From: Deltaproteobacteria bacterium
GTDB lineage: Bacteria; Myxococcota_A; UBA9160; UBA6930
DNA: 38,497 nt
Assembly (NCBI GenBank): GCA_002687015.1
Contig: NYZB01000236.1
Location: 1 to 38,497 of the forward strand
Direction of reading: 5' to 3'
Part shown: piece by piece, positions 2,975-31,856 of the stretch
Numbering within the stretch: the first letter of the stretch is position 1
Layout: every line of letters begins with the position of its first letter
Notes under the pieces: generated by a model
The model's database searches: none
Told to the model about the DNA's origin: nothing
Seen by the model: the letters and a program-made list of their open reading frames with translations, nothing else
Program-made: the position numbers and the translations under genes

Positions 2975-3003
2975 TGGACAACCGAATTGAAACGTGTTCT
3001 AAT
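2975..3003 (+). promoter_or_regulatory. Sigma-70 type promoter of the TetR operon
   Basis: TGGACA (2975-2980) and TCTAAT (2998-3003) are separated by exactly 17 bases and each differs from the -35/-10 consensus at one position. Transcription would start near 3009-3010, only two or three bases before the GTG at 3012. The TetR mRNA would then be nearly leaderless, consistent with the absence of a Shine-Dalgarno sequence there. The inverted-repeat operator at 2988-3001 fills the spacer and overlaps the -10, so bound repressor would block RNA polymerase. Confidence 0.7.
2988..3001. promoter_or_regulatory. TetR operator, site 1 (KstR-like)
   Basis: TGAAACGTGTTCTA is an imperfect palindrome that fits the pattern TnnAACnnGTTnnA, which I recall as the binding motif of mycobacterial KstR. 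The surrounding 20 bases (2986-3005) recur exactly, in inverse orientation, at 15982-16001 in front of another fatty-acyl-CoA operon. The position inside the promoter of a TetR gene indicates autorepression. Assignment of this TetR as the binder is inference. Confidence 0.75.
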
Positions 3004-3011
3004 TTGGCTTC

Positions 3012-3650
3012 GTGAGCTCTCCCCTCGAGTCCCCCAGCGCGACCGGTCTGGCCGCCAGCCAGCTTCGCCGGATCCGCCGCATCGTGGACGCCGCCGTGCA
3101 GCTGGCGGAGCAGGGTGGCTTCGACGGCGTGCGCCTGCGCGACGTGGCCGAGAGCGCCGACGTGGCCCTGGGCACCCTCTACAAGTACTTCCCCAGCAAG
3201 GAGGCGATCCTCCTCTACGCGGTCAACGAGGGCAACGAGGGTCTCGAGCGGGTGATGGGCGAGAGCCCGCCCCGGGGCGACAGCCCCGCCGAGCGGGCCA
3301 GCGACTTCTTCGCCCGCGCCACCCAGACCTTCACCCGCCGGCCGGACTTCGCCCGCGCCGTGCTGCGGGCGATCGCGGCCAGCGACCATGCCACGGCCGC
3401 CCAGCAGGCCGGCTTTCATTTGCGGATCGGACGGATGATCATCTCCGCATTGCGCGGCGAGCAGCCGGAGCTCTCGCGCCCGCTGAGCGAGCCGATCGGC
3501 AGTGAGCGGGAGCAGGCGATCGCCCTGATCTTGAATCACATCTGGTTTGCGGCGCTGCTCGGCTGGTCGAGCGGCCTGCATCCCGCGACGGCCGTGGCCG
3601 AACGCATGGCCCAGGCCATCGAGCTGATTCTCGGAGGACCCCCTACATGA
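3012..3650 (+). CDS. TetR-family transcriptional repressor
   Basis: A 212-residue TetR/AcrR-type regulator. Residues about 18-65 form the DNA-binding domain: RRIVDAAVQLAEQGGFDGVRLRDVAESADVALGTLYKYFPSKEAIL, split here as helix 1, the helix-turn-helix and the family hallmark GTLYKYFPSKE. The rest is the helical ligand-binding and dimer domain. GTG at 3012 is chosen because the promoter ends at 3003 and the next codons give a normal-length N-terminus. The stop overlaps the start of the next gene (ATGA), so it is the first gene of a six-gene operon for acyl-CoA metabolism. The operator in its promoter implies autorepression. By analogy with KstR the inducer could be an acyl-CoA thioester, but this is not visible in the sequence. 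Confidence 0.9.
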   Translation: MSSPLESPSATGLAASQLRRIRRIVDAAVQLAEQGGFDGVRLRDVAESADVALGTLYKYFPSKEAILLYAVNEGNEGLERVMGESPPRGDSPAERASDFFARATQTFTRRPDFARAVLRAIAASDHATAAQQAGFHLRIGRMIISALRGEQPELSRPLSEPIGSEREQAIALILNHIWFAALLGWSSGLHPATAVAERMAQAIELILGGPPT

Positions 3651-4096
3651 GTCAGGAAAGTTCCCTCACTGCGCCCCACAAGATGGCGTACACCTACAAG
3701 CGTTCGCTGGGTCCGGTGCTGAGCCGCTTTGCCACCGCGCTGCGGGATCGCAAGATCCTGGGTGCTCGGCGTGCGGACGGCACGGTGATGGTGCCGCCGA
3801 AGGAGTACGACCCGGACACGGCCGCCGCCATCGAGGAGCTGGTCGAGGTGGGGCCGGCCGGCGTGGTGAAGAGCTGGGCCTGGGTGGGCGAGCCGCGGGC
3901 CGCGCAGCCGCTTGCAAGGCCCTTTGCCTACGCCCTCGTGCAGCTCGACGGCGCCGACACCCCCATGGTGCAGGTCGTCGACGCGGGCAGCGAGGAAGCC
4001 ATGAAGACGGGCATGCGCGTCACGGCGCGCTGGTCCGATGAGGCGACGGGGATGATCACCGATCTCAGCTTCGTACCCGTCGACGGGGAGGCCTAG
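3647..4096 (+). CDS. DUF35-type OB-fold protein without zinc ligands
   Basis: A 149-residue protein of the OB-fold acyl-CoA-associated (DUF35) family, which partners thiolase-like proteins. The N-terminal helix region (LGPVLSRFATALRDRKILGARR) and the PPKEYDPDT segment align with the zinc-ribbon part, but all four expected Cys are gone (ARRADG ... YDPDT). The OB domain follows (GVVKSWAWVGEP ... PFAYALVQLDGADTPMVQVV). It overlaps the TetR stop by four bases and is followed eight bases later by a second family member that retains zinc-like ligands. Likely one subunit of a complex with the two downstream thiolases, comparable to ChsH2 with Ltp2. The lack of zinc ligands suggests a structural or substrate-shaping role. 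Confidence 0.8.
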   Translation: MSQESSLTAPHKMAYTYKRSLGPVLSRFATALRDRKILGARRADGTVMVPPKEYDPDTAAAIEELVEVGPAGVVKSWAWVGEPRAAQPLARPFAYALVQLDGADTPMVQVVDAGSEEAMKTGMRVTARWSDEATGMITDLSFVPVDGEA

Positions 4097-4104
4097 AGGG
4101 AGCC

Positions 4105-4617
4105 ATGAGCGAACAAGAAAGCGACGCCAACGAGCCGGTCGAGATGCTCCGCATGCCGGTCGAGCTCGACTACACCTACTCGGCCGGAACCTCCGCCTCG
4201 CGCTTCCTGCGTGCCTTCGCCGAGGGCAAGCTGCTCGGCCAGCGCTGTCCCGTGGATGGCAAGGTCTACATCCCCACCCGCGGTTCCTGCCCGCAGCATG
4301 GCGTGCCCATCGACGGCGAGCCGGTGGAGGTGGCCGACAAGGGTACGCTGGTCACCTACTCGATCGTGAGGGTGCCCTCGGAGAACATCCCCCTCGAGCT
4401 TCCCTACGTGGCCATCCAGGTGGTGCTCGATGGCGCTGACACCGCCATGCATCACGTCCTCAGCGAGTGCGAGCTCGAGGACGTGCACATGGGAATGCGG
4501 CTGCAGGCCAAGTGGAAGCCTCGGGAGGAGTGGGAGACCTCGGTGGGGAACATCCTCTACTTCATTCCCATCGACGAGCCGGATGCCCCCTACGACTCGT
4601 ACAAGGAGCACATCTGA
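4105..4617 (+). CDS. DUF35-type OB-fold protein with zinc-ribbon remnant
   Basis: A 170-residue DUF35 protein. Residues about 30-65 match the rubredoxin-like zinc ribbon: LGQRCPVDGKVYIPTRGSCPQHG, where the usual four Cys appear as Cys, Asp, Cys, His. This could still hold a metal. The OB fold follows (GTLVTYSIVRVPSENIPLELPYVAIQVVLDGADTAMHHVLSE). The start has GGAG seven bases upstream. The stop overlaps the ATG of the thiolase gene by one base (TGATG), so tight co-translation is expected. It probably binds one of the two adjacent thiolases. Two DUF35 and two thiolase genes in a row resemble the DUF35/ltp arrangements of actinobacterial sterol clusters. Confidence 0.85.
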   Translation: MSEQESDANEPVEMLRMPVELDYTYSAGTSASRFLRAFAEGKLLGQRCPVDGKVYIPTRGSCPQHGVPIDGEPVEVADKGTLVTYSIVRVPSENIPLELPYVAIQVVLDGADTAMHHVLSECELEDVHMGMRLQAKWKPREEWETSVGNILYFIPIDEPDAPYDSYKEHI

Positions 4618-5669
4618 TGCGTGACGTCGCCGTCGTCGGCTTCACTCAATCGGAGTCGGTCCGCCGTGAGCGCGACCGCAACGAGGTCGAGATCCTCATT
4701 CCGGTGATCCACGAGCTCAAGACGCGGGCCGGGATTACCAGCGAAGACCTGGACTTCGTCTGCTCGGGCTCCAGCGACTACCTGGCGGGCGCGGCCTTCG
4801 CCTTCGTGAGCGGTCTCGACGCGGTCGGCGCCTGGCCGCCCCTCTGCGAGAGCCACGTCGAGATGGACGGTGCCTGGGCCCTCTACGAGGCCTGGGTGAA
4901 GATCCAGATGGGCTACGCGGATCTCGCTCTCGTCTACGGCTTCGGCAAGCCCAGCATGGGCGACCTGCCCCTGACCATGGCGCTGCAGCTCGACCCCTAC
5001 ACGACCATGCCACTGTGGCCGGATGCGGTGAGCATCGCCGCGCTGCAGGCGCGGCTTTGTCTGGAGGGCGGAGTGCTGAGCGAACGCGACATGGCCGAGG
5101 CAGCGGCTCGCGACCGCAGGAACGCGCTCGACAACCCCAATGCCCAGGTGGCGGGCGACTTCAGGGCGGAGCAGATCTTGAGCGAGCCGTATCTGGTGTC
5201 GCCCTTGCGCAAGCACGACTGCGCGCCGATTTCCGATGGCGCCTCGGCGGTCCTGCTCGCGGCTGGCGACCGCGCGAAGGAGATGTGCGAGCGCCCGGCC
5301 TGGATCCGCGGCATCGAGCACATCTGCGAGCCCCAGGAGCTGGGCGTCCGCGATCTCACGCGGAGCCGCTCGACCGAGATCGCGGCCGAGAAGGCCGGCG
5401 TGGGCGCGGGCAAGGTGGACGTGGCCGAGCTCTCGGCTCCCTTCAGCCACCAGGAGATCCTGGTGGAACGCGCCCTCGGGCTGGGATCGGATACCGAGGT
5501 CAACCCCTCGGGCGGGGCCCTGGCGGGCAACCCGATCATGGCCGTAGGCCTCTCCAGGATCGGAGAGGCCGCCGATCGAATTACCAAGGGAAGCGCGAAC
5601 CGCGCGGTGGCCCACGCCACCTCGGGGCCGTGCCTGCAGCAGAACCTCGTCTGCGTGCTGGAGGGCTGA
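4617..5669 (+). CDS. Lipid-transfer-protein type thiolase, nucleophile Cys replaced
   Basis: A 350-residue thiolase-superfamily protein of the SCP-x/Ltp type (MRDVAVVGFTQSE ... ADLALVYGFGKP ... ISDGASAVLLAAG ... NPSGGALAGNPIMAVG). By eye, the canonical nucleophile block VCGSGLQA lines up with VEMDGAWA, so the catalytic Cys is replaced by Glu near residue 82. The catalytic His of GHP is Asn (AGNP). The late Cys is kept in SGPCLQQN. Such changes argue against ordinary beta-ketothiolysis and fit aldolase-like members such as Ltp2, which act with DUF35 partners. The ATG at 4617 overlaps the preceding stop, and the second thiolase starts three bases after this one ends. The substrate is unknown; a steroid or branched side-chain acyl-CoA is an inference. 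Confidence 0.85.
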   Translation: MRDVAVVGFTQSESVRRERDRNEVEILIPVIHELKTRAGITSEDLDFVCSGSSDYLAGAAFAFVSGLDAVGAWPPLCESHVEMDGAWALYEAWVKIQMGYADLALVYGFGKPSMGDLPLTMALQLDPYTTMPLWPDAVSIAALQARLCLEGGVLSERDMAEAAARDRRNALDNPNAQVAGDFRAEQILSEPYLVSPLRKHDCAPISDGASAVLLAAGDRAKEMCERPAWIRGIEHICEPQELGVRDLTRSRSTEIAAEKAGVGAGKVDVAELSAPFSHQEILVERALGLGSDTEVNPSGGALAGNPIMAVGLSRIGEAADRITKGSANRAVAHATSGPCLQQNLVCVLEG

Positions 5670-5672
5670 GCG

Positions 5673-6830
5673 ATGGCAGAGCTCACCGGAGTCGTCGGAA
5701 TCGGACAGACCAAGTATGCGGCCAAGAGGGCGGAGCTCTCGATGCCCGGGCTGCTGCGAGAGGCCGCGCTTCGCGCCCTCGAGGACGCCGGGCTCACCTG
5801 GAACGACATCGACGCCGTCGTGATCGGGAAGGCCCCCGACATGTTCGAGGGCGTGATGATGCCCGAGCTCTTCCTGAACGACGCCGTCGGCGGGGCCTAC
5901 AAGCCCATGCTGCGCGTGCACACGGCCGGCAGCGTGGGCGGCTCGACGGCCGTCGTGGCGGCCAGCCTGGTGCAGTCGGGTGTGCACGATCGGGTGCTCA
6001 CCGTCGCCTACGAGAAGCAGTCCGAGTCGAACGCCACCTGGGCGCTCTCGATCTCCATGCCCTTCTCGGTGGCCACGATCGCTGGCGCCGGCGGCTACTT
6101 CGCGCCGCTCGTGCGCGGCTACATCCGGCGTTCGGGCGCACCCGACGACACGGGCATCCGCGTGGCCGTGAAGGACCGCGAGCACGCGCTCAAGAACCCG
6201 CTGGCCCACCTGCAGCTCGAGGACATCAGCTTCGAGATGGTGGCCAACTCTCCCATGCTCTGGGATCCGATCCGCTACCTCGAGACCTGTCCCTCGTCGG
6301 ACGGCGCCTGCGCGATGATCTTCGCGAACGAGGAGCTGGCCAGGCAGGCTCCGAACCCGGTCGCCTGGGTGCATGCCACCGAGATGCGCAGCGAGCCGAC
6401 CATGTTCTCGGGCCGCGACCAGGTGATGCCCCAGGCCACCCTCGACAATGCGGCCTCCCTCTACAAGAAGGCCGGCATCCAGAACCCGCGCGAGGAGATC
6501 GACTGCGCCGAGATCTACGTGCCCTTCAGCTGGTTCGAGCCCATGTGGATGGAGGGCATGCTCTTCGCCCCGACCAACGAGGGCTGGAAGATGACCTACG
6601 AGGGAGCCACGAAGCTGGGGGGTGAGCTGCCGGTCAACTGCTCCGGCGGCGTGCTCTCCTCGAACCCGATTGGCGCCTCCGGGATGATCCGCTTCGCGGA
6701 GTCGGCCCTGCAGGTGCGCGGCATGGCGGGTGAGCACCAGGTCGATGGCGCGAAGAAGGCACTGGGCCACGCCTATGGCGGCGGCTCGCAGTACTTCTCG
6801 ACCTGGATCGTGAGCAGCGAGAAGCCCTAG
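5673..6830 (+). CDS. Lipid-transfer-protein type thiolase, second copy
   Basis: A 385-residue SCP-x/Ltp-type thiolase (MAELTGVVGIGQTKYA ... ALEDAGLTWNDIDAVVIG ... CPSSDGACAMIFANEE ... NCSGGVLSSNPIGASG). The nucleophile region reads VHTAGSVGGSTAVVAA, with Ala/Gly where the Cys belongs. The GHP His is Asn (SSNPIGASG), and the late active-site Cys is also absent (HAYGGGSQYFSTW). It therefore probably does not catalyse classical thiolysis. It follows the first thiolase with a three-base gap. The two divergent copies may form a heteromer with the two DUF35 proteins, or serve as two alternative aldolase-like enzymes. Confidence 0.85.
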   Translation: MAELTGVVGIGQTKYAAKRAELSMPGLLREAALRALEDAGLTWNDIDAVVIGKAPDMFEGVMMPELFLNDAVGGAYKPMLRVHTAGSVGGSTAVVAASLVQSGVHDRVLTVAYEKQSESNATWALSISMPFSVATIAGAGGYFAPLVRGYIRRSGAPDDTGIRVAVKDREHALKNPLAHLQLEDISFEMVANSPMLWDPIRYLETCPSSDGACAMIFANEELARQAPNPVAWVHATEMRSEPTMFSGRDQVMPQATLDNAASLYKKAGIQNPREEIDCAEIYVPFSWFEPMWMEGMLFAPTNEGWKMTYEGATKLGGELPVNCSGGVLSSNPIGASGMIRFAESALQVRGMAGEHQVDGAKKALGHAYGGGSQYFSTWIVSSEKP

Positions 6831-6854: not shown

Positions 6855-7985
6855 ATGGACTTCGCGTTCTCGGAGGAGCAGGACGAGTTCCGGGAGATGC
6901 TGCGCCGCTTCTTCGAGGAGAAGGCGCCGAGCAGCGAAGTGCGTCGGATGAGCGAGCTGCCCGAGGGCTTCGATCGAGCGGTCTGGAAGCAGATGGCCGA
7001 GGAGCTCGGTCTCCAGGGGGTGCACGTACCCGAGGGCTACGGCGGCCAGGGCTTCGGTTTCCTCGAGCTGGGCATCGTCCTCGAGGAGATGGGGCGCGTC
7101 CTGCTCCCCTCGCCCTTCCTGGCGAGCTCGGTTCTCGCAACCTGCGCCATCTTGAACGCCGGAGCGGAGGAGCAGCGCGCCGCCCTGCTGCCCGGCCTCG
7201 CGAGTGGCGAGCGAATTGCCGCACTCGCCCTGGCCGAGGACGGCGTCGGCTGGGAGCCGCGGGCCTTGAAGCTCGAAGCGGTTCCCGAGGGCAGCGGCTT
7301 TCGTCTCTCCGGCTCCAAGGGCCTGGTCCTCGACGGGCAGGTCGCGGACCGGCTCATCGTCGCCGCACGCCTGCCCGGCACGGAGGGCGACGACGGCATC
7401 ACGCTCTGCGTCGTGTCGGCGGACGACTCCGGCTTGAAGGCGGCTCCGCAGGAGCCCCTCGATCCGACCCGCAGGCTGGCCCGCATCGAGCTCGACGGTG
7501 CTCGCGGAGAGGCGCTCGGAGTGCCCGGAGAGGGGGCCGCACCCCTGGCCAGGACGCTCGCCCAGGGCGCGATCGCTCTCAGCGCGGAGATGGTAGGGGG
7601 CGCTGCGCGTTGTCTCGACATGTCCGTCGACTACGCGAAGGTGCGCGTCCAGTTCGCCAAGCCCATCGGCACCTTCCAGGCCATCAAGCACAAGGCGGCC
7701 GAGGTCCTCCTCGACCTCGAGCTGGCTCGCGCGGCAGCCTACTGGGCGTGGTGGGTCGCAGACGAGGACCGGGATGAGCTCCAGGAGGCCGCTCACCTGG
7801 CGAAGGCCACCTGCGCCGAGGCCTTCCACCATGCGGCCCGGGAGAACATCCAGATCCACGGTGGCATCGGCTTCACCTGGGAGCACGATGCCCATCTCTA
7901 CTACAAGCGGGCCACGGCCGACGACACCCTCTTCGGTGATGCCACCGAGCATCGTTCGAAGCTGGCGGATCTGCTCGGGGCCTAA
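6855..7985 (+). CDS. Acyl-CoA dehydrogenase, small (non-catalytic Glu) type
   Basis: A 376-residue FAD acyl-CoA dehydrogenase: N-terminal helical domain (MDFAFSEEQDEFREMLRRFF), a middle beta domain, and a C-terminal helical domain with VRVQFAKPIGTFQAIKHKAAE and IQIHGGIGFTWEHDAHLYYKR. At the position of the isovaleryl-CoA dehydrogenase-type catalytic Glu (LDLER) it reads LAQGAIAL, so the base is missing. In heteromeric alpha2beta2 dehydrogenases (FadE26-27 type) this is the signature of the partner subunit. A partner with the Glu is encoded at 14768-15955 under the same operator. GGAGAG lies five bases upstream of the ATG. It is the last clear gene of the TetR operon. Confidence 0.9.
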   Translation: MDFAFSEEQDEFREMLRRFFEEKAPSSEVRRMSELPEGFDRAVWKQMAEELGLQGVHVPEGYGGQGFGFLELGIVLEEMGRVLLPSPFLASSVLATCAILNAGAEEQRAALLPGLASGERIAALALAEDGVGWEPRALKLEAVPEGSGFRLSGSKGLVLDGQVADRLIVAARLPGTEGDDGITLCVVSADDSGLKAAPQEPLDPTRRLARIELDGARGEALGVPGEGAAPLARTLAQGAIALSAEMVGGAARCLDMSVDYAKVRVQFAKPIGTFQAIKHKAAEVLLDLELARAAAYWAWWVADEDRDELQEAAHLAKATCAEAFHHAARENIQIHGGIGFTWEHDAHLYYKRATADDTLFGDATEHRSKLADLLGA

Positions 7986-8525: not shown

Positions 8526-10943
8526 GTGTTCGGATCGAGGCTTCTGCTCCCCGGACTCGTGCTCGCGGGCGTCCTCGCCCTGCTAGGCTATCGCCTGTTG
8601 GCGGATCGGGAACCCGAACGAAGCGCCGATCGAGAGGAGGCCACCCCGATGTCTCCCGCCTCCCATCCCGGAAGTGCTTCGGCCTCCAATCGGCTCGCCC
8701 TCGAGGCGAGTCCCTATCTGCAGCTGCACGCGCACAACCCGGTGGACTGGTATCCCTGGGGCCCGGAGGCCTTCGAGCGGGCTCGGGCCGAGCAGAAGCT
8801 GGTCTTCCTCTCCGTGGGCTACAGCACCTGCTACTGGTGCCACGTCATGGAGCGGGAGGTGTTCTCCGACCCGGCGATCGCGGCGTTCATGAACGCCCAT
8901 TTCGTGTCGGTCAAGGTGGATCGCGAAGAGCGGCCCGACATCGACGCGGTCTACATGGAGGCCACGCGCCTGCTCACCCACAGCGGCGGCTGGCCCAACT
9001 CGGTCTTCCTGACCCCCGAGGGTGAGCCCTTCTTCGCGGGGACCTACTTCCCGCCGGAGGACGGCCTCGGCCGGCCCGGCTTCCCCCGCGTCCTGCGCTC
9101 TCTCCAGGAAGCCTGGACGAAGGAGCCGGAGAAGATCCTGGCCGTCGCCGGGCGGGTTACCGAGCAGATTCGGAAGATGGCGCTCCTCGGGGGTGGAGAG
9201 CAGATCCTGCTTCCCACGGGCGACCTGATGAGGCAGGCGCTCGATGGGCTGGCCCGTGACTTCGACGCGGACTACGGCGGCTTCGGGCAGTCCACCAAGT
9301 TCCCGCGTCCGCCCTCCCTCGATCTGCTCCTGACGCACCTCGAGATGCAAGAGGATCCCGAGGTCGAGGCCATGCTCGTCCACACCCTCGACGCGATGGC
9401 CCTGGGTGGGATCTACGACCATCTCGGCGACGGCTTCCATCGCTACTCGACCGAGCCGACCTGGTCGATTCCCCACTTCGAGAAGATGCTCTACGACAAT
9501 GCGCAGCTCGTGAGCGTCTACGCCCGGGCCTTCGCGCTCACCGAGCGCCCTCTCTACAGGCGGGTCGTCGAACGCACTCTCGCCTACCTCGACCGCGAGA
9601 TGAGCCATCCCGAGGGTGGCTTCGTCTCGGCGCAGGATGCGGAGGTGGGCGGAGAGGAAGGCGCGTCGTACCTGTGGAGCCGGGAAGAAGTCGAAGCCGT
9701 GCTCGGCAAGGAGAAGGCCGAGGAGCTCCTGCGAGTCTACGAGCTGGCGGCCATGCCCGATTCCCATGAGCATGGCGTCCTACGGGTGCGTCTTCCCCTC
9801 GAGGAGCAGCTGGAGAGGACGGGTGTGGGAGATGCAGCGAGCCTGCTGGCCCGCTTCGACGCCGAGCGCCGCTTGCTCCTGGCACGGCGCGAGACGCGCC
9901 CGCAGCCGCTACGCGACGCCAAGGCGCTGGCTGCCTGGAACGGGCTGGCCATCCGGGGGCTGGTCGATGCGGCCCGGGCGCTCGAGCGGCCGGAGTATCT
10001 CGGCCGTGCCGAGAGCGCTGCGGAGTTCGTCCTGGCGCGGCTCCTCGGCGAGGATGGGACCCTGCGACGCTCCTACGTCGCCGGGCGGGTACGAGAGGAC
10101 GGCGTCCTGGACGACTACGCCTTCCTGGCCGACGGGCTCCTGGCGCTGCATGGCGCGACGGGAGAGGCGGGCTGGCTCGCGGCCGCGCGGGGCCTCGGCG
10201 ACGTCCTGCTCTCCCGATTCCAGGACACGGGGCAAGACGGCGGGGCTGCCGCCTTCTTCCTGACACCGCAGGGCTCGGACCTGCTCGTCCGGCCCAAGCC
10301 CTTCGAGGACAACGCCCTGCCCGCAGGAAATGGCGTGGCACTCCGCGTGCTGCGGAGCCTGGATGCGAGCTTCGGCTCTGGCGACTACGCGAAAGCCGCC
10401 GCCGGGATCATCGGAGCGGCAGGCCTTCTCCTGGAGCGCGCCCCCCACGCCCTTCCCACGACCGTCGCGGCCATGGCACGCGCTCCGTCGTCGCGGGGCA
10501 TCGAACCGCTTCAGGCGCCGAGCGGGTCCGAGGCCGAGGGGCGAAGCGCGCGCCCCTTCCCCTCGAGCGGGGATCACGTGCAGGTCCGGCTCGTGCGGAA
10601 GGGAGGCGAGCGGGGCGAGCTGGCGGTGATCCTCACGATCGACGAGGGCTGGCACGTGAACGCCAACCCGGCCTCGCTGGCCTACCTCGTCGCCACGGCC
10701 GTCGAAGGGCCCGCCCTCGGAGGGCGCAGCGTCCGCTACCCAGAGGGAAGGAGCTACCAGCCCGAGTTCGCGCCGACCGCCATCCAGGTCTACGCGGGGA
10801 CGGTCGAGATCGTCGTCTCGCCCGGCGAGACCGCCGTCTCTCCCGAAGGGCTCGCGCTCCGCTTCCAGGCCTGCAGCGACACCCAGTGCCTGCCGCCCCA
10901 TCGCAGCGCGCTCGTACTCGACCCCCCCCACACGACGCAGTAG
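8526..10943 (+). CDS. Membrane-anchored YyaL/SSP411-type thioredoxin protein with DsbD-alpha-like C-terminus
   Basis: A protein of about 805 residues. From GTG 8526 the first 30 residues form a membrane anchor ([20 protein letters not shown]). Next comes the DUF255/YyaL thioredoxin fold ([18 protein letters not shown]) with the redox motif STCYWCHVM, and a long helical region resembling an alpha/alpha barrel ([12 protein letters not shown]). The last 130 residues look like the N-terminal alpha domain of DsbD ([10 protein letters not shown] ... [13 protein letters not shown]), including its two Cys. An alternative start is ATG 8649, with a strong AGGAGG eight bases upstream, which would give a cytoplasmic protein without anchor. 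I prefer the longer form because the DsbD-like domain is periplasmic in its relatives and the rhodanese before it is exported. Function of YyaL-type proteins is poorly known. Confidence 0.85.
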
Positions 10944-11090
10944 TCCTGCCACGCCGCAAAGGTGCCCGGATGGGAGGGCCGGCGACTCATGGGCGTGCAA
11001 TCGACCGGCGACGACCTCCGCACCCGCAGACGCCGGTGTTTGGCGATCCACACCCGCCCACTATCTTCTCCAGGGAAGTCGGGTGGTAGA

Positions 11091-11516
11091 GTGGGACGGA
11101 TCGATTACACGATCGACGCCGGGCGATCGCTCCTGCATGCGGTGGCCGTGGGCGACCTGGATGACGACGCCCTGGCCGCCTACGTGATCAGCTATCACGC
11201 CCATCCCGACTATTCGCCTTCACTGGACGAGATCGTCGACTTCACCGGCGTCGCCTCGGTCCTGGTGACGGGCGCGGGAATCCGCGGCCTTGCGCACCTC
11301 GTGTCCCACTACGGCCAGGCCTCCGAGGGCTCGCGGGTGGCCCTGATCGCGACGACCCCCGTCGTCTACGGTCTCGCTCGCATGTACCAGGCCCTTCGCG
11401 CCGACGCGCCGGACGACATCCGCGTCGTCAGCGATCTCGTCGAGGCCGAGACCTGGCTCGGGGCAGCGCGTACGAGCGATTGCGTGAGTTCTGCTCGCGA
11501 GCCCGCGACCGGGTAG
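11091..11516 (+). CDS. SpoIIAA/STAS-like small protein
   Basis: About 141 residues from GTG 11091 (VGRIDYTIDAGRSLLHAVAVGDLDDDALAAYV). The start of the sequence and the later VASVLVTGAGIRGLAHLV and SRVALIATTPVVYGLARMYQAL resemble the SpoIIAA-like STAS fold proteins found widely in Proteobacteria. No transmembrane segment or catalytic motif is visible. The ribosome site is weak (GGTGG). The reading frame extends upstream to 10962, but that part is low-complexity and not convincing. Role unknown. Confidence 0.65.
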   Translation: MGRIDYTIDAGRSLLHAVAVGDLDDDALAAYVISYHAHPDYSPSLDEIVDFTGVASVLVTGAGIRGLAHLVSHYGQASEGSRVALIATTPVVYGLARMYQALRADAPDDIRVVSDLVEAETWLGAARTSDCVSSAREPATG

Positions 11517-11577
11517 CGCACCTAGCGCCCGGCCCGGCCGGTCCCAGGAGGGCGACGGGGCCCCGTAGGGAAGGGAT

Positions 11578-12495
11578 GTGAAGCTCGAGATCGCCACCTG
11601 CCAGTTCCCCGTGAGTTCCGACCTCCGTCGGAACACGCGCTACGTCCTGCGTCAGATGAGCGCCGCGAAGGAAGGGGGCGCCCATGTCGCGCACTTCGCC
11701 GAGGGCGCTCTCTCGGGCTACGCGGGAGCCGACTTCGACTCCTTCGAGGGCTTCGATTGGGAGCTCCTCCGGGAATGCTCGCTCGAGGTCCTGGAGCACG
11801 CGCGTCGGCTCCGGCTCCGGGTCCTTCTCGGCTCCAGCCACCGGCTCACGGGGCGGCGCAAGCCCCACAACAGCGTCTACGTGATCGACGAGCGGGGCCG
11901 CATCGTCGATCGCTACGACAAGCGATTCTGCGCCGGGGATCGCGCGGGGAAGACCGGCGACCTGGCGCACTACAGCCCCGGCGACCATGTAAGCCTCTTC
12001 GCGATCCGGGGCGTCCGCTGCGGTGTGCTGATCTGCCACGAGTATCGCTACCCGGAGCTCTATCGCGAGTACAAGAAACGCGGCGTCCAGATGGTGTTCC
12101 ACTCCTACCACGCGGCGAACGCATCCCGCGCCGATCTCGCCGCCATGCGCGACCAGGTCGGGGCGGAGAACCACCGCTTCAATCGCGGCACGACCCTCCC
12201 CGAAATCACCATGCCGGCCGCGATGCAGGCGTCCGCTGCCAGCAGCCACGTCTGGATCAGCTGCCCCAACTCCTCGGCCAGGGAGAGCTGCTGGCCGGGC
12301 TTCTTCGTGCGCCCCGACGGCGTGATCACGGGGCGTCTGCACCGGAACCGGGCAGGCATCCTCTTCTCGACGCTCGACACGCGCGAGCCGCTCTACGATT
12401 CGACCGTCGCGTGGCGCGGCCGCGCCATGCGCGGCGTGTATCACACGGGAAGAGTGGCCCGGGATCCGCGCTCTCGGAATCGCAGCGAGCTGTAG
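11578..12495 (+). CDS. Carbon-nitrogen hydrolase (nitrilase superfamily)
   Basis: A 305-residue amidohydrolase of the nitrilase superfamily. The Glu-Lys-Cys triad is visible: Glu in HFAEGALSGY (near residue 43), Lys in RYDKRFC (near 119) and Cys in GVLICHEYRYPEL (near 153). The length is normal. The start is GTG at 11578, preceded by GGGAAGGG. The predicted product is cytoplasmic and hydrolyses an amide or nitrile-type C-N bond; the substrate cannot be told. It converges on the PilZ gene, with only five bases between the stop codons. Confidence 0.88.
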   Translation: MKLEIATCQFPVSSDLRRNTRYVLRQMSAAKEGGAHVAHFAEGALSGYAGADFDSFEGFDWELLRECSLEVLEHARRLRLRVLLGSSHRLTGRRKPHNSVYVIDERGRIVDRYDKRFCAGDRAGKTGDLAHYSPGDHVSLFAIRGVRCGVLICHEYRYPELYREYKKRGVQMVFHSYHAANASRADLAAMRDQVGAENHRFNRGTTLPEITMPAAMQASAASSHVWISCPNSSARESCWPGFFVRPDGVITGRLHRNRAGILFSTLDTREPLYDSTVAWRGRAMRGVYHTGRVARDPRSRNRSEL

Positions 12496-12500
12496 GCGCG

Positions 12501-13142
12501 CTACGAGCCGAGTCGGGCTTCGACGTACCTGGCGAGGGCTATGCGGGTCTCATCGGGTAGCGGATCGAAGACCAGGCCAGTACGCACGCCCTCGCGGTAG
12601 CTGGGCTGGGCCGGGATCTGCACCAGCCCCTGTCGGGCGAGCGGGAAGCAGATCTCGACACGGCTTTCCTCGTGGAAGGGCGATGTGCTCTGGAGCAGGC
12701 AGCCCTTCTCGGAGATCGAGCGGATCGCGCCGGACCAGGACTCGAGACCCCGTGTGGCACGAGCCGGAAGTGCGTCGGTGACGCGCGGCACCGAGCGTGG
12801 CTGCGGCTCGAGGGCGTTCTGCAAGAGCTGGTAGAGGTCGGCCAGGCGAGCCCGCCGGCGAACCCGCCCCAGCGAAGGCTCGTCGGGCTCCGTGGTCGTC
12901 GAGCCGCGTGAGCCGATCAGCAGGATCTGCGGAAGATCATCCCGACGGGCGGGAAGCTCACTCAGCTGGCGCTCGTCCACGATGCGGAGCTGGGGCCGCA
13001 GCAAGCCGTCGTCTCGCTGGCGGTGGGCCGTACGCGCCGAGATGAGGTTGTAGCCGAGGCGCATGAGCGCGGTCTGGACGCCGGGGGCGAAGGCCCGATC
13101 CGGCGCATGGACCGCCACGGTGACCCGGCTCCTGCCCCCCAT
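12501..13142 (-). CDS. PilZ-domain protein with receiver-like N-terminus
   Basis: A 213-residue protein. The N-terminal half (VTVAVHAPDRAFAPGVQTAL ... DLPQILLIGSRG) has the outline of a degenerate receiver fold without a clear phosphoacceptor Asp. The C-terminal half looks like PilZ (ARATRGLESWSG then IRSISEKGCLLQS ... VEICFPL ... GLVFDPLPDETRIALARYV). The SxxG part of the c-di-GMP motif is present, but RxxxR is not clean, so nucleotide binding is uncertain. The frame extends far upstream, but that part is the shadow of the membrane-protein gene. ATG 13142 begins eight bases after that gene ends, suggesting an operon. Probably a signalling output protein. Confidence 0.7.
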   Translation of the reverse strand: MGGRSRVTVAVHAPDRAFAPGVQTALMRLGYNLISARTAHRQRDDGLLRPQLRIVDERQLSELPARRDDLPQILLIGSRGSTTTEPDEPSLGRVRRRARLADLYQLLQNALEPQPRSVPRVTDALPARATRGLESWSGAIRSISEKGCLLQSTSPFHEESRVEICFPLARQGLVQIPAQPSYREGVRTGLVFDPLPDETRIALARYVEARLGS

Positions 13143-14767: not shown

Positions 14768-15955
14768 CTAGCTCCGAGGCAGCTCTTCGAAGGCGCGCTG
14801 ACGGTCGCTGCTCTCCTCGCGCGGCAGGCCGAGGACGCGCTCCGCGCACACGGTCTTCTGCACCTCGCTGGTGCCACCGGCGATGTGGAAGGCCGGCGCG
14901 AAGAGGTACTCGTTCTGCCAGTAACCCGGGCGAAGCAAGGCCTTCGGCCCCAGCGCCCTCATCGCCAGGGCGTTCGCCTTCGTCATGACCCGGGCCAATG
15001 CGAGCTTCATCACCGAGGACTCGGCCGTCGGCATGACGCCGCGGCCCAGCTTCGACACGACACGGGCGTTCAAGAGCTCGAGACAGCGCAGCTGGCTGTA
15101 GACCTTCGCGAGCTCGTCGCGCTGGGTCGCATCCGGATGCCCCCCCGCCTCCTCGACCACGAGTGCCTTGAGTTCGTCGAAGTGCAGCAGGTTCGAGAGC
15201 CCACCCATGGCCATGCGCTCGTTCATCAGGGTCGTCTGCGCCACGGCCCAACCGGCGTTCAGCTCGCCCAGGCGGGCGCTGTCCGGAACCCGTACGTCGT
15301 TCAGGAACACCTCGTTGAAGTGGGACTCGCCGGTCATCTCGATCAGCGGTCGCACCTCGATTCCAGGCGCCTTCATGTCCAGCAGGAAGAAGGTGATGCC
15401 CTTGTGCTTGGGCAGGGATGGATCGGTGCGCGCGATCAGGATGCCGAAGTCGTTGTGCTGGGCGCCCGAGCACCAGGTCTTCTGACCGTTCACGACCCAA
15501 TCGTCGCCGTCGCGCACAGCCCGGGTGGCGAGCCCGGCCAGGTCGGAGCCCGCGCCGGGCTCGCTGAAAAGCTGGCACCAGGTCTCGTCGGCCCGGAGAA
15601 GCGGCCCGAGGTACCGCTCCTGCTGCTCGGGGGTGCCGTGGGCGACGAGGGTCGGGCCGACCATGCCGATCCCCACGGTCAGCATGGAGTGGCCGACCCC
15701 TCGCTTGCTCAGCTCCTCGTTCCAGATGATCTGCTCGATCGGGCCCTTGCCCCGGCCGCCGTAGCTCTCGGGCCAGGTGAGGGCGCCCCAGCCGTGCTGG
15801 GCCAGGGTCTTCTGCCAGGCGAGGTGCTGCTCGTACACCTTCTCCTGGTCGTCCCCGGAGGTGTAGCTCCCGAACTCCTCCGGGACGTGGGCTTCCAGGA
15901 AGGCCACAGCCTCGGCCCGGAAGGCCGCCTCGGAGGGGGAGTCGGTGAAGTCCAC
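14768..15955 (-). CDS. Acyl-CoA dehydrogenase, large catalytic type
   Basis: A 395-residue acyl-CoA dehydrogenase. FAD/substrate motifs: QLFSEPGAGSDLAGL and WVVNGQKTWCSGAQ. The catalytic Glu occurs in TLMNERMAMGG (near residue 245), aligning with LDLER of isovaleryl-CoA dehydrogenase. The C-terminal segment FHIAGGTSEVQKTVCAERVLGLPRE is typical. The open frame runs up to a TTG at 16000, but that codon lies inside the operator and upstream of the expected transcription start. GTG 15955 has GAGGTG five bases upstream and gives the usual family N-terminus (VDFTDSPSEAAFRAEAVAFL). Co-regulation with the small-type dehydrogenase at 6855-7985 suggests that they form a heteromer. Confidence 0.92.
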   Translation of the reverse strand: MDFTDSPSEAAFRAEAVAFLEAHVPEEFGSYTSGDDQEKVYEQHLAWQKTLAQHGWGALTWPESYGGRGKGPIEQIIWNEELSKRGVGHSMLTVGIGMVGPTLVAHGTPEQQERYLGPLLRADETWCQLFSEPGAGSDLAGLATRAVRDGDDWVVNGQKTWCSGAQHNDFGILIARTDPSLPKHKGITFFLLDMKAPGIEVRPLIEMTGESHFNEVFLNDVRVPDSARLGELNAGWAVAQTTLMNERMAMGGLSNLLHFDELKALVVEEAGGHPDATQRDELAKVYSQLRCLELLNARVVSKLGRGVMPTAESSVMKLALARVMTKANALAMRALGPKALLRPGYWQNEYLFAPAFHIAGGTSEVQKTVCAERVLGLPREESSDRQRAFEELPRS

Positions 15956-15985
15956 GAGAGCACCTCGACGCGAGGGAGCCAAAAT

Positions 15986-15999
15986 TAGAACACGTTTCA
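15986..15999. promoter_or_regulatory. TetR operator, site 2 (KstR-like)
   Basis: TAGAACACGTTTCA matches TnnAACnnGTTnnA and is the inverse of site 1. The 20 bases 15982-16001 are identical to 2986-3005 read on the other strand. On the minus strand a TCTAAT -10 (15989-15984) overlaps it, exactly as at site 1. The -35 is weaker (TTGTTG with an 18-base spacer). Repression of the dehydrogenase/hydratase operon is expected. The divergent alpha-oxoamine synthase gene starts 60 bases away and could also be affected. Confidence 0.75.
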
Positions 16000-16059: not shown

Positions 16060-17244
16060 ATGGACGTCTTCCAGAAGTGCGCGGAGAACGACCGAGCCGC
16101 CCAGGTCCGCGCAGCCGGTCTCTACGCCTACTATCGCGAGCTGGACACGCCCCAGGATCCGGTGGTGCACCGCCGCGGTGGGCCGCCGCTGATCATGCTG
16201 GGCTCGAACAACTACCTCGGGCTGGCGAGCCACCCGGAGGTCAAGAAGGCCTCCGGCGAGGCGTTGGAGCGCTATGGAACTGGGTGCGCCGGCTCCCGGC
16301 TCCTGAACGGGACCCTCGCGATCCACGAGGAGCTGGAAGAGCGGCTCGTGGCCTTCACGGGACGGGAGGCCGTGCTCACCTTCGCGACCGGCTTCCAGGT
16401 CAACCTCGGCGTGCTGTCGGCCCTCCTGGACCGTCACAGCACGGTGTTCCTCGACGCCCTCGACCACGCCAGCCTGATCGACGGCGCAAGGCTCGGCTTC
16501 GGCTCCCTTCGGAAGTACCGCCACAACGACCTCGCGGATCTCGCGCGCAAGCTCGGGCGCACCGAGGAGCACCACGGCAAGCTGATCGCCGTCGACGCCG
16601 TCTTCTCGATGGAGGGCGACCTCGTCGACCTTCCGGGGATCGTCGAGATGGCCAGGGCCCACGAGGCGCGCATCCTCCTCGACGAGGCGCACGGTGTCGG
16701 CGTGTTCGGCGCCCGGGGCCGCGGCGTCGCCGAGCACTTCGATCTCGAGGAGGAGGTCGATCTCGTGATGGGCACCTTCTCGAAGTCGCTCGCGGCGGTG
16801 GGCGGCTATGTCGCCGGTCCCGAGCCGGTGATCGACTACCTCCGCCATCATTCGCGCCCGGCGATCTTCTCGGCGGCTCCGCCTCCGGCCTCGGCGGGGG
16901 CTGTGATTGCCGCGCTCCACCTCATCGAGCGCGAGCCCGAGCGGCGAGCCCGGCTCTGGGACAACACGAGCTTCATGAAGCGGGAGCTCCAGGGCCTGGG
17001 TTTCGATACGGGGGAGTCGAAGTCGCCCGTGATTCCCCTCATGGTCGGCTCGGACGAGACCTGCTTCGCGATGGTGCGCCGCCTCGAGGAGGAAGGGGTC
17101 TTCGCCAATCCCGTGGTGAGCCCCGCGGTGCCCGCTGGAAACGCGATGATCCGCACCTCCTACATGGCGACCCACACCCGCGAGCACCTCGAGCGCGCCC
17201 TCGAGGCCCTTTCCACCGTCGGCCGCGAGCTGGCGGTTCTCTGA
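16060..17244 (+). CDS. Alpha-oxoamine synthase (serine palmitoyltransferase / KBL / BioF family)
   Basis: A 394-residue fold-type I PLP enzyme that condenses an amino acid with an acyl-CoA. Motifs: MLGSNNYLGLASHPEV, YGTGCAGSRLLNGTLAIHEELE, LDALDHASLIDG, LLDEAHGVGVFGARGRG, and the PLP-binding Lys in VMGTFSKSLAAVGGY (near residue 246). The GTGCAGSRLLNGT block and the absence of biotin genes nearby make a serine palmitoyltransferase-like or 2-amino-3-ketobutyrate CoA ligase role more likely than BioF, but sequence alone does not separate them. It is divergent from the acyl-CoA dehydrogenase operon with the operator between them. Confidence 0.85.
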   Translation: MDVFQKCAENDRAAQVRAAGLYAYYRELDTPQDPVVHRRGGPPLIMLGSNNYLGLASHPEVKKASGEALERYGTGCAGSRLLNGTLAIHEELEERLVAFTGREAVLTFATGFQVNLGVLSALLDRHSTVFLDALDHASLIDGARLGFGSLRKYRHNDLADLARKLGRTEEHHGKLIAVDAVFSMEGDLVDLPGIVEMARAHEARILLDEAHGVGVFGARGRGVAEHFDLEEEVDLVMGTFSKSLAAVGGYVAGPEPVIDYLRHHSRPAIFSAAPPPASAGAVIAALHLIEREPERRARLWDNTSFMKRELQGLGFDTGESKSPVIPLMVGSDETCFAMVRRLEEEGVFANPVVSPAVPAGNAMIRTSYMATHTREHLERALEALSTVGRELAVL

Positions 17245-24321: not shown

Positions 24322-27300
24322 CTACGAGATCCGGCGGCGGAAGGCGTCCAGGAGCTCCCGCTCCTTGGCGCGGGCGTCGTGGAGGTGCCGCTCCTTCACC
24401 CCTCCGAAGCCGCGGATCAGCTCGGGGATCGCGGCGATCTCGAGGGCGATCCCGTGGTTCTCGGCGTTGAGTCCCGCGACGAGCTCCGCCACGGTGGCCT
24501 CGTAGTCCCGCGGGAGCTTCCGCTCGAGGCGGCGCTCGGCCGTCCAGCCAAAGGGATCGAGGGGCGTGCCGCGCAGGAAGCGAAGGAAGCGGATCGTCTT
24601 CCACACCGGGAACAGGAAGCCCTTCGGGAAGCGCCACTTCGGCGTGCGCCCACCCTCCGGATCGCGGGGGACCAGCCAGGAAGGCAGGAAGGGCATCGCG
24701 ACGTGGAAGCGGAGACTTCGAGCGCTCTCGAACTCGCGCTCGATCTGCTCCAGGAAGACCCCGTCCGTATAGAGCCTCGCCACCTCGTACTCATCCTTGT
24801 AGGCGAGCAGCTTGAAGTAGTAGCGGGCCACCGTGCGCGCGAGCTCCTCGCTACCCAGCCGCTCCTTCTCGCACTCTGCCACCCGGTCGACGAGGCCTTC
24901 GAAGCGCCGGGCGTAGCGGGCATTCCGGTACGCAGTGAGGAAGGGGATGCGCAGTGCCAGCAGGTCGGAGAGGCTCTCTTCCCCCGGGCCCGGCTCGAAG
25001 CCGCGTCGCAGCGGCGTCACCAGCTCCTCCACGCGGCTCGGATCGTGAGCGGCGAGGCGGCCCCACGCGAGCGCCCTGCGATTCAGCTCGACGCTCCTTC
25101 CGTTCAGCTCGATGGCGCGTTCCAGCGCCTCGAGGGAGACCGGGATGTGGCCCAGCTGCCACGCGTAGCCGAGCAGGAAGAGGTTCGTCCCGATGGCATC
25201 GCCGAGCAGCGCGGTCGCCCACGCGGTGGCCTCCGGGAAGTGGGCCCGGCCGTCTCCGGTCGTGCTGCGGACGGCCTGCTGCATCGGCTCGAAGGAGAGG
25301 TCGAGGTCGGCATCGCGCGCGAAGTCCGAAGTGGGCGCGACGTATCGGTTGATGATGGCGATCGTCCTGGGACCGATCGCCGGCAGGTGCTCCGGATTGG
25401 TGGCGACCACGGGATCACAACCGAGCACGAGGCTCGCGCCGCCCGCGGCGATGCGCGTGGCGAAGATCCGATCCGACGCGTCGGCGATGCGCACGTGGCT
25501 CGCGACGGCCCCGTTCTTCTGGGCCAGCCCCGTGACATCCAGCTCCGAGCTGCCCTTGCCCTCGAGGTGGGCCGCCATGGCGAGGATGGAGCCCAGGGTC
25601 ACGACGCCGGTACCGCCGATTCCGGCGATCAGGATGTCGTAGGGCTCGGAGGTCGCGGGCAGGGTCGGCTCCGGGAGGCCCGCGAAGACCCCCGCGTCGA
25701 AGTCGGCCGCTGGCGTCTCGGCCCTTCGCAGCACGCCACCCTCGACGGACACGAAGCTCGGGCAGTCGCCCTGCACGCAGGAGAGATCCCTGTTGCAGGA
25801 GCTCTGGTCGATGCGGCGCTTGCGCCCGAAAGGAGTCTCGACCGGCTCGATGGAGATGCAGTTCGACTGCAAGCTGCAATCCCCGCAGCCCTCGCAGACC
25901 CGCTCGTTGATCACGATGCGGGTCTCCGGCTCGGGAAGCTCACCCCGCCCGCGAAGGCGACGCGCCTCGGCGGCGCAGGTCTGGTCGTAGATCAGCGCGC
26001 TCACACCCGCGATCTGGCGCAGCTCCTTCTGGACCTCGTTGAGCCTGTTGCGATCGTGGATCGTGACGCCTTCGGGGAAGAGGCCGCGCGGGTACTTCGC
26101 GATGTCGTCCGAGAGCACGGCGATCCGTTCGACGCCCTCGGCCCGAAGCTGCCGGGCGATCTCGGGGCAGGTGATCTCGCCGGCCATCGACTCGCCCTCG
26201 ATGGGCTGGCCGCCGGTCATGGCGACGGCGCCATTCACGAGCAGCTTGAAGGTGATGCTCACCCCGGCCGCTACGCAGGCTCGGATCGCAAGCAGGCCCG
26301 AGTGGAAATAGGTTCCATCCCCCATGTTCTGGAAGACGTGCGGCATCTCGACGAAGGGCGCCTGGCCGATCCAGTTGCTGCCCTCGCCACCCATCTGGGT
26401 GGCACCGAAGGTTCGACGCTCGGGAAAGAACGCGGCCATGCCGTGGCAGCCGATACCGCCCATGGCCACCGAGCCCTCGGGGAGACGGGTGGAGGTGTTG
26501 TGGGGGCAGCCGGCGCAGAAGCTCGGCAGCCGGGTCAAGGGGGCCGAGACCGCCGCGACCGGAGGTGCGGGGGCCGGCACGAGCAGGCGCGCCTGCTCGG
26601 GCATGCGCCGCGCGAGCCAACGGCGGATGGCCTCGCGCACCGCCGCGGGCCCCAGCTCGCCCACCTGGGAGAGGAGGGGTGCACCCGTCTCGTCGTGCTT
26701 GCCGAGCAGTCTGGGACGTTCGCCCTCGTTGATCAGGAGGTGCGCGAGCTGCTCCTCGAGGACCGGTCTCTTCTCCTCGACGACCAGCACCTCCTCGAGG
26801 CCCCGGCAGAAGGCCCGGGCCGCCGCCGGCTCGAGCGGCCAGGGCATCGCGACCTTGTAGATCGCGAGCCCCAGGTCGGCGGCGCGAGTTTCGTCGATCC
26901 CGAGATCGTGGAGGGCCTGACGCAGGTCCAGGTAGGCCTTGCCGGTGGTGACGATGCCGAGCTGGCGCCGGGGCGAGTCCATCGCGATACGGTCGAGGCC
27001 GTTCGCGCGCACGAAGGCCTGGGCCGCTGGGAGCTTGACCTCGAAGAGCTGCTTCTCGATCGCCGCCAGGGTGTTCGTCATCGCGACGTGGTGGTCCTGG
27101 GCCGGGAAGGCGAAGCCCGGATCGGCCAGCCGAACGCGCCCGGGGTCGACCTCCACCGATGCGCCGCTGTCGACCGTGTCGGTCGAGCACTTGAAGCCGA
27201 CCCAGCAGCCCGAGTAGCGCGAGAGCGCGAAGCCGAAGAGCCCGAGGTCGAGGTAGTCCTGCAGGTTCGCCGGGTTCAGGATCGGAATGCCCGCGTGGAT

Positions 27301-27795
27301 CAGGGCCTGCTCGCTCTGATGGGCGATCGAGGAAGATCGGGCGCCCGGGTCGTCGCCGCAGAGGGCCAGCACGCCGCCCCGGGCGGCGCTCCCCATGTAG
27401 TTGCCGTGCTTGATCGCGTCGAGGGAGCGGTCGAGCCCCGGTCCCTTGCCGTACCACATGGCAAACACACCCTCGTGTCGGGCGGTGGCCTGGATCGAGG
27501 CCTGCTGGGTGCCCCAGACCGCGGTGGCGGCCAGGTCCTCGTTGACCCCCGGCTCGAAACGGATGCCCCTGGCAGCGAGCAGCTGGCGGGCCTGCCAGAG
27601 CGCCATGTCGAGGGTGCCGAGCGGGGAGCCCCGATAGCCCGAGACGAAGCCCGCCGTATCGAAGCCCGCCGCTTCGTCCCGCGCCTTCTGGAGCAGCGGC
27701 AGCCGCACCAGCGCCTGCACGCCGGTCAGGTAGACACGCCCGGAGTCGCGGGTGTAGCGGTGATCGAGCTCGTAGCTCTGGTCGACGGGGGCCAT
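24322..27795 (-). CDS. Fused indolepyruvate ferredoxin oxidoreductase
   Basis: A 1157-residue single-chain 2-oxoacid:ferredoxin oxidoreductase of the IorAB fused type, which decarboxylates aryl or branched 2-oxoacids to acyl-CoA. Order: an N-terminal pyrimidine-binding region (GYRGSPLGTLDMALWQA); a TPP domain with FCAGCPHN, GGIGCHGMAAFFP and GDGTYFHSG (near 550); an Fe-S segment with CEGCGDC and further Cys (SCNRDLSCVQGDC); a gamma-type domain from AGIGGTGVVTLGSILAMAA (near 740); and a C-terminal domain of about 250 residues (DUF6537-like). ATG 27795 has GGGAG three bases upstream. It stands alone, divergent from the PEP-CTERM gene. An imperfect inverted repeat, AACCT-gacct-AGGTT, lies about 40-55 bases upstream. 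Likely role: amino-acid catabolism yielding acyl-CoA. Confidence 0.93.
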   Translation of the reverse strand: MAPVDQSYELDHRYTRDSGRVYLTGVQALVRLPLLQKARDEAAGFDTAGFVSGYRGSPLGTLDMALWQARQLLAARGIRFEPGVNEDLAATAVWGTQQASIQATARHEGVFAMWYGKGPGLDRSLDAIKHGNYMGSAARGGVLALCGDDPGARSSSIAHQSEQALIHAGIPILNPANLQDYLDLGLFGFALSRYSGCWVGFKCSTDTVDSGASVEVDPGRVRLADPGFAFPAQDHHVAMTNTLAAIEKQLFEVKLPAAQAFVRANGLDRIAMDSPRRQLGIVTTGKAYLDLRQALHDLGIDETRAADLGLAIYKVAMPWPLEPAAARAFCRGLEEVLVVEEKRPVLEEQLAHLLINEGERPRLLGKHDETGAPLLSQVGELGPAAVREAIRRWLARRMPEQARLLVPAPAPPVAAVSAPLTRLPSFCAGCPHNTSTRLPEGSVAMGGIGCHGMAAFFPERRTFGATQMGGEGSNWIGQAPFVEMPHVFQNMGDGTYFHSGLLAIRACVAAGVSITFKLLVNGAVAMTGGQPIEGESMAGEITCPEIARQLRAEGVERIAVLSDDIAKYPRGLFPEGVTIHDRNRLNEVQKELRQIAGVSALIYDQTCAAEARRLRGRGELPEPETRIVINERVCEGCGDCSLQSNCISIEPVETPFGRKRRIDQSSCNRDLSCVQGDCPSFVSVEGGVLRRAETPAADFDAGVFAGLPEPTLPATSEPYDILIAGIGGTGVVTLGSILAMAAHLEGKGSSELDVTGLAQKNGAVASHVRIADASDRIFATRIAAGGASLVLGCDPVVATNPEHLPAIGPRTIAIINRYVAPTSDFARDADLDLSFEPMQQAVRSTTGDGRAHFPEATAWATALLGDAIGTNLFLLGYAWQLGHIPVSLEALERAIELNGRSVELNRRALAWGRLAAHDPSRVEELVTPLRRGFEPGPGEESLSDLLALRIPFLTAYRNARYARRFEGLVDRVAECEKERLGSEELARTVARYYFKLLAYKDEYEVARLYTDGVFLEQIEREFESARSLRFHVAMPFLPSWLVPRDPEGGRTPKWRFPKGFLFPVWKTIRFLRFLRGTPLDPFGWTAERRLERKLPRDYEATVAELVAGLNAENHGIALEIAAIPELIRGFGGVKERHLHDARAKERELLDAFRRRIS

Positions 27796-31830: not shown

Positions 31831-31856
31831 CGAAGAGCGGAACGACGAGGAGCTCG

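Follow-up and report, generated by a model that had tools for sequence, protein, structure and literature searches.

An Ltp3–Ltp4-type block of two thiolase-like and two DUF35 genes behind a KstR-type operator in an uncultured deltaproteobacterial lineage

Gene block and operator

The window analysed here is a stretch of 38,497 nucleotides from a Deltaproteobacteria bacterium (contig NYZB01000236.1 of assembly GCA_002687015.1). At 3647–6830 it carries a block of four intact genes, all in the same direction, that encode two small DUF35 proteins (DUF35-A and DUF35-B) and two thiolase-like proteins (T1 and T2) of the kind named Ltp4 and Ltp3 in actinobacteria (Table 1). Overlaps and gaps between neighbouring genes are at most 8 bases: the 3' end of the TetR-family repressor gene and the 5' end of DUF35-A overlap by 4 bases, DUF35-A and DUF35-B are separated by 8 bases, the stop codon of DUF35-B overlaps the start of T1 at 4617, and 3 bases lie between T1 and T2. 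In Pfam, both small proteins match OB_ChsH2_C (the OB fold of DUF35, PF01796) and both large ones match thiolase domains. Gene spacing and Pfam agree with an earlier note on this DNA, made from the sequence alone, which had described two Ltp-type thiolases and two DUF35 proteins in one tight block. An acyl-coenzyme A (acyl-CoA) dehydrogenase gene follows T2 after 24 bases and is probably on the same transcript; a homologue of it was counted near the block in 22 loci.

The consensus of the KstR operator is TnnAACnnGTTnnA (PMC1995591), and the identical site in the window ends 10 bases before the called start codon of the TetR gene. The KstR regulon listed for Mycobacterium tuberculosis includes ltp3 and ltp4, and one KstR site of this species is located between Rv3520c and Rv3521 (Kendall 2007, PMC1995591). 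Allowing up to one mismatch, the motif has five matches in the window against 1.37 expected. In 28 of 81 homologous loci it is also present in the 300 bases before the block or its TetR gene, as compared with a mean of 0.12 and a maximum of two loci in first-order Markov sequences generated from these upstream regions. Genome-wide matches alone are weak proof, because 14 operator-like sites were found against eight for the reversed control; no lipid genes were recognised adjoining two of the sites (C137 and C239:48261). The TetR protein aligns over its full length with the NCBIfam KstR equivalog, at a score below the cut-off of 280 bits, and this similarity and the matching operator lead us to call it KstR-like only. 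Control by a KstR-like repressor, as the earlier note had it, is supported by both.

Table 1. Features of the block and its surroundings in the window
Feature	Position	Strand	Evidence
KstR-type operator TGAAACGTGTTCTA	2988..3001	.	identical to consensus TnnAACnnGTTnnA
KstR-like TetR-family repressor	3012..3650	+	Pfam TetR_N; NCBIfam KstR 121.9 bits
DUF35-A (OB_ChsH2_C), zinc-ribbon Cys absent	3647..4096	+	PF01796 39 bits
DUF35-B (OB_ChsH2_C), zinc-ribbon remnant C48-x2-D51 and C62-x2-H65	4105..4617	+	PF01796 43.8 bits, weak zf-ChsH2
T1, Ltp4-type thiolase-like, 350 aa	4617..5669	+	PRK07937 533.7 bits (cut-off 419)
T2, Ltp3-type thiolase-like, 385 aa	5673..6830	+	PRK08313 651.3 bits (cut-off 514)
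Acyl-CoA dehydrogenase	6855..7985	+	Pfam ACAD domains
Second KstR-type operator TAGAACACGTTTCA	15986..15999	.	exact inverted copy of the 2988 site

Residue replacements in the thiolase-like and DUF35 proteins

Based on an alignment of 116 T1 sequences, 105 T2 sequences and eight other thiolase-family proteins from the same genome, neither T1 nor T2 has the nucleophilic Cys or the GHP-motif His of the classical and SCP-x thiolases. The T1 and T2 sets include near-duplicates from loci reached through two collections, so that all counts refer to sequences and not to independent lineages. In the column of the nucleophilic Cys, T1 has Glu82 (114 Glu and two Asp), and T2 has the invariant pair Gly86 and Ser87, of which pairwise HMMER alignment selects Gly86 and MAFFT selects Ser87 as the equivalent of the Cys. 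At the GHP His position, T1 has Asn305 (Asn in 105 sequences and His in 11) and T2 has Asn331 in all 105. The HDCF motif reads Ser273-A-P-F in T1 of this window, position 273 being His in 77, Ser in 18 and Tyr in 15 sequences of the family, and Y282-V-P-F in every T2. The earlier note had reported the loss of the Cys in both proteins and the change of the GHP His to Asn, and the alignment bears it out on both points; its Glu in one thiolase also stands, but the 'Ala/Gly' that it read in the other is better given as Gly or Ser.

These replacements reflect repurposing and not decay, because they are conserved in more than 100 homologues of each protein. That the thiolases are decayed, or an artefact of annotation, is a practically negligible possibility; we found no point in its favour, and the intact reading frames, the more than 100 conserved homologues of each protein and the conservation of the replacements themselves led us to reject it.

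The DUF35 pair is asymmetric, like the thiolase pair, because positions for zinc ligands are kept in DUF35-B alone. Among 115 aligned sequences, DUF35-A has no Cys at the ligand positions of the zinc ribbon, whereas DUF35-B keeps four positions of mixed type (C48, D/C51, C62 and H/C/D65), with Cys in 89 of 115 sequences at position 48, Cys in 61 and Asp in 25 at position 51, Cys in 92 at position 62, and Cys in 41, His in 26 and Asp in 26 at position 65. Both DUF35 domains are in a single reading frame at 19 homologous loci.

Relation of T2 to proven aldolases

Two thiolase-fold aldolases have known catalytic residues: Tyr294 and Tyr344 in TcLtp2, and Tyr302 and Cys304 in CtSal, in which the nucleophilic Cys is replaced by Gly (PMC12329534). 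T2 was mapped onto their structures (6ok1 for TcLtp2 and 9myr for Sal) with paralogues as alignment bridges. Tyr282 of T2, invariant in the 105 sequences, corresponds to the catalytic base, Tyr294 of TcLtp2 and Tyr302 of CtSal. Pro284 stands at the position of Cys304 in Sal and His296 in Ltp2, and Asn331 at that of Tyr344 in TcLtp2, whose column was read as the thiolase GHP His position. Of the two Ltp2 tyrosines that the earlier note had proposed to look for, the equivalent of Tyr294 is therefore present and that of Tyr344 is not. The base Tyr is absent from T1 of this window, which has Ser273 at the His position of the HDCF motif.

AlphaFold2 models of both proteins have the thiolase fold, with predicted local distance difference test (pLDDT) values of 89.2 for T1 and 85.2 for T2. 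In Foldseek, the best match of T1 is 6et9, a DUF35-linked archaeal acetoacetyl-CoA thiolase (template modelling score, TM, 0.91), and T2 matches SCP2-thiolase, BbsB and Ltp2 (6ok1). T1 and T2 thus have the thiolase fold and no nucleophilic Cys, as Ltp2 and Sal do. We do not file T2 as Ltp2 or Sal, because the catalytic acids of both are absent, but it probably works in a similar way. Identity of T2 with Ltp2 itself was considered and rejected, since a separate Ltp2 orthologue is encoded in the same genome and the acid residue differs.

An Ltp2-like role in C–C cleavage, which the earlier note had suggested, is the best guess and is favoured by the base Tyr and the Sal-like Gly that T2 keeps. 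The same complex might instead catalyse another reaction of the same sterol or isoprenoid pathway (Claisen-type, decarboxylative or hydration-coupled), as would fit the lack of either aldolase's acid in T2, the archaeal thiolase as the closest structure of T1, the similarity of T2 to SCP2-thiolases and BbsB besides Ltp2, and the different chemistry of other complexes of thiolases with DUF35 proteins, namely, BbsAB, PhlABC and the archaeal thiolase/3-hydroxy-3-methylglutaryl-CoA synthase. However, the thiolytic and Claisen chemistry of this fold uses the nucleophilic Cys, which is missing in both subunits, and the aldolase-type Tyr and Gly are retained in T2; we regard another reaction as improbable.

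Distribution and sterol context

In 32 loci of the window's class, the four genes stand in the order DUF35-A, DUF35-B, T1 and T2, so far as the contigs extend. A scan of named genomes gave at least 597 matches, and 592 of the matches listed were confirmed as relatives. T1 is followed by T2 in all 80 named loci that were retrieved, with the DUF35 pair in front of them in every case where the contig is long enough. The block occurs in Zhongshania, Spongiibacter, Sterolibacterium, Acidimicrobiia and many metagenome-assembled genomes (MAGs) labelled "Deltaproteobacteria/Myxococcota", as well as in Nocardia farcinica, Tsukamurella tyrosinosolvens and Streptomyces clavuligerus, in which the order is the same and the DUF35s are fused into one gene. 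It is also carried by a MAG titled Klebsiella pneumoniae (L112, CAMAXE010000001.1), a bin that is probably mislabelled. Seven genomes (G004, G019, G021, G047, G058, G143 and G167) contain two or three T1-type copies each above the family cut-off, which suggests substrate-specific duplicates.

Two such blocks lie among genes for sterol degradation. In Tsukamurella, the block clusters with an AMP-binding ligase, a crotonase, a P450 and a steroid 3-ketoacyl-CoA thiolase (FadA5; 667 bits, cut-off 515), and in one relative (G125) it lies near an acyl-CoA synthetase, KshA, a TetR gene, an EchA19-type hydratase and HsaA (407 bits, cut-off 450). Of 224 genomes that belong to the phylum but not to the window's class, 15 carry the block together with KshA, one has KshA only, two have the block only and 206 have neither (Fisher p = 2.5e-20, a value uncorrected for relatedness and indicative only, at thresholds of >200 bits for T1 and >170 bits for KshA_C that were chosen after a gap in the scores was seen). 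Ltp2, the C17 side-chain aldolase, scores above its cut-off in 54 of 61 relatives, and in about 13 of them the distance between it and the block is 3–8 kb.

The orthologue of Ltp2 in the window's own genome (494 bits to TcLtp2 6ok1) is located in L155 (G000:C239:8000-20000), together with two acyl-CoA dehydrogenases; a KstR-type site at C239:14639 precedes these genes, and the locus resembles the igr-type side-chain operon of mycobacteria. In another locus of the same genome (L139, G000:C269:10000-29900), positions 9827-12754 encode a large molybdoenzyme that belongs to the type II dimethyl sulfoxide reductase family and is similar to the alpha subunit of ethylbenzene dehydrogenase (697 bits, cut-off 2000). 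Its neighbours include a xanthine-dehydrogenase-type trio and thiolase-like genes, and it could be a candidate oxygen-independent side-chain hydroxylase. The KshA-like match of 149.6 bits on contig C18 was rejected as a steroid gene: it adjoins caprolactamase/carboxylase-type genes, with no steroid cluster around it.

Within the window, the neighbours of the block are generic acyl-CoA dehydrogenases and hydratases. The second KstR-type site lies between a pimC-like acyl-CoA dehydrogenase gene (14771-15982, minus strand) and a BioF/serine-palmitoyltransferase-like gene (16060-17244, plus strand), and has a counterpart downstream of the block in two other loci (L049 and L055). Farther along are a single-gene indolepyruvate ferredoxin oxidoreductase (24325-27795, minus strand; 1533 bits, cut-off 816) and a beta-propeller protein of the pyrroloquinoline quinone-type alcohol dehydrogenases (31809-33815; 745 bits) flanked by two enoyl-CoA hydratase genes.

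Identity and proposed function

Three features of the Ltp3–Ltp4 system recur in this block: a tandem of PRK07937 and PRK08313 thiolase-like genes, which is the same pair as in Nocardia farcinica and Tsukamurella, a double DUF35 directly upstream of it (as two genes here), and a KstR-type operator upstream. The subfamilies, the gene order, the operator and the sterol-cluster context all point to the Ltp3–Ltp4 system of the actinobacterial KstR regulon, and its order, gene lengths and operator would make the block equivalent to the Rv3521–ltp4–ltp3 locus of M. tuberculosis. As cited in later papers, Ltp3–Ltp4 was studied genetically by Wilbrink et al. (2012), and a review calls it a "heteromeric aldol-lyase" for the C24 branches of sitosterol and campesterol (PMC6678751). 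The assembly is thus not an undescribed one, as the earlier note had suggested, since a genetic proposal for it has been published, according to that citing paper. In the open literature searched, we found no biochemical or structural characterisation of Ltp3–Ltp4, and the enzyme for removal of the C24 branch of plant sterols stands there as a genetic proposal. Of value here are the residue map and the conservation of the KstR operator across phyla; the novelty is modest.

We consider it likely that the block encodes a KstR-controlled, heteromeric retro-aldolase of two thiolase-fold and two DUF35 subunits, which acts on a sterol side chain in its beta-hydroxyacyl-CoA form, most likely at the C24 branch. 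By analogy with Ltp2–ChsH2 and Sal–Shy, the four proteins would form one complex, in which T2 would be the catalytic subunit and bind the hydroxyacyl-CoA. Tyr282 would deprotonate the side-chain hydroxyl, the Gly86 that replaces Cys would leave room for it, and cleavage of the C–C bond would yield a ketone and a CoA enolate. Candidate acids for protonation of the enolate are another residue of T2 or, of greatest interest, the Glu82/His80 region of T1; the acid would differ from the known ones because Tyr344 of Ltp2 and Cys304 of Sal are both absent. T1 would be a partner with a conserved pocket of its own. As in Sal–Shy, it is probably the DUF35 subunits that give the substrate cleft its shape, and a zinc-ribbon-like fold seems possible in DUF35-B only.

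The role of T1 can be thought of in two further ways. T1 may be a non-catalytic scaffold (a pseudoenzyme), with all of the chemistry in T2, which is a variant of the retro-aldolase and possible but doubtful: position 273 varies between His, Ser and Tyr and T1 has no base Tyr, whereas there is almost no variation, across the range from Myxococcota to Streptomyces, at Glu82, His80, Asp84 and His333 or in most of the HATSGPCLQQN segment, a degree of conservation beyond what a scaffold would appear to need. Less probable still, and in our view unlikely, is a composite active site across a T1–T2 heterodimer, in which T2 would supply the Tyr base and T1 the acid (Glu82 or another invariant residue). 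Neither thiolase-like subunit would then act alone, and the thiolase fold would have yielded a third catalytic route to retro-aldol cleavage.

Several observations weigh against a sterol retro-aldolase. Neither Tyr344 nor Cys304 has a counterpart in the T2 alignment, and T2 has Val for the Asp of the YDxF motif. A strong KshA (>170 bits) was found in only two of 60 genomes sampled from the class, though most of them carry the block, and the best KshA of the window's own genome reaches 149.6 bits. The equation of PRK07937 and PRK08313 with the subfamilies of Rv3522 and Rv3523 would follow from length, order and operator and not from a direct alignment. Finally, single deletions of ltp3 and ltp4 in Mycolicibacterium neoaurum still gave 4-HBC from phytosterols (PMC10398937), which speaks against an essential C24 role in that organism, although redundancy could explain it; on the need for Ltp3–Ltp4 in the degradation of C24-branched sterols, the published data as presented in these two sources (PMC6678751, PMC10398937) are mixed.

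The scarcity of strong KshA in the class, the presence of HsaA above the cut-off in only seven of 61 relatives, and the generic acyl-CoA genes around the block would also fit a substrate other than a sterol, such as another branched or cyclic acyl-CoA, in which case only the regulator and operator would be common with steroid catabolism. On the other hand, Ltp2 is widespread in the same relatives and often adjoins the block, the window's own genome encodes an HsaA-like protein of 439 bits, just below the cut-off of 450, and the operator matches mycobacterial KstR sites; we give a non-sterol substrate a small chance. The KstR operator and gene set common to actinomycetes and this uncultured deltaproteobacterial lineage suggest a shared sterol side-chain regulon, and such a gene set across phyla widens the sources of enzymes for steroid synthesis. 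For the retro-aldolase, the residue pattern (a Tyr base, a lost acid, a partner Glu and a zinc-less DUF35) narrows the question of mechanism to a few point mutants.

Comparison with known systems

The benzoylsuccinyl-CoA thiolase BbsAB (7pxp) and PhlABC (5m3k) are, like the putative complex known here from its genes, heteromeric assemblies of thiolase and DUF35 proteins. They catalyse other reactions, namely, thiolysis and Friedel-Crafts acylation, and their sequence similarity to T1 and T2 is only moderate. The Ltp2–ChsH2 aldolase (6ok1) has in common with the block the thiolase fold, a DUF35 partner, the missing nucleophilic Cys and the base Tyr, but consists of one thiolase-like and one DUF35 type, whereas two of each are encoded here, and its Tyr344 and His296 are replaced by Asn331 and Pro284 in T2. 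The bile acid aldolase Sal–Shy (9myr, PMC12329534) is similar in its Gly for Cys, its base Tyr (Tyr302, Tyr282 in T2) and a DUF35 partner with an altered zinc finger; it differs in the catalytic Cys304, which is Pro284 in T2, and in a single thiolase-like type. Steroid aldolases of the Ltp2/Sal type form alpha-beta-beta-alpha complexes with DUF35, for which the block here offers the adjacency of its genes. The closest system is Ltp3–Ltp4/Rv3521 of the sterol catabolic clusters of Mycobacteriales, which, as far as it is described in the sources cited (Wilbrink 2012, Kendall 2007), shares the tandem thiolase-like genes, the DUF35 directly upstream and the KstR operator. The situation here is different from that of the Ltp3–Ltp4 comparison loci in three respects: the DUF35s are two genes and not one fused gene as in Nocardia, Tsukamurella and Streptomyces, the operon is headed by a KstR-like gene of its own, and the host belongs to an uncultured deltaproteobacterial/myxococcotal lineage.

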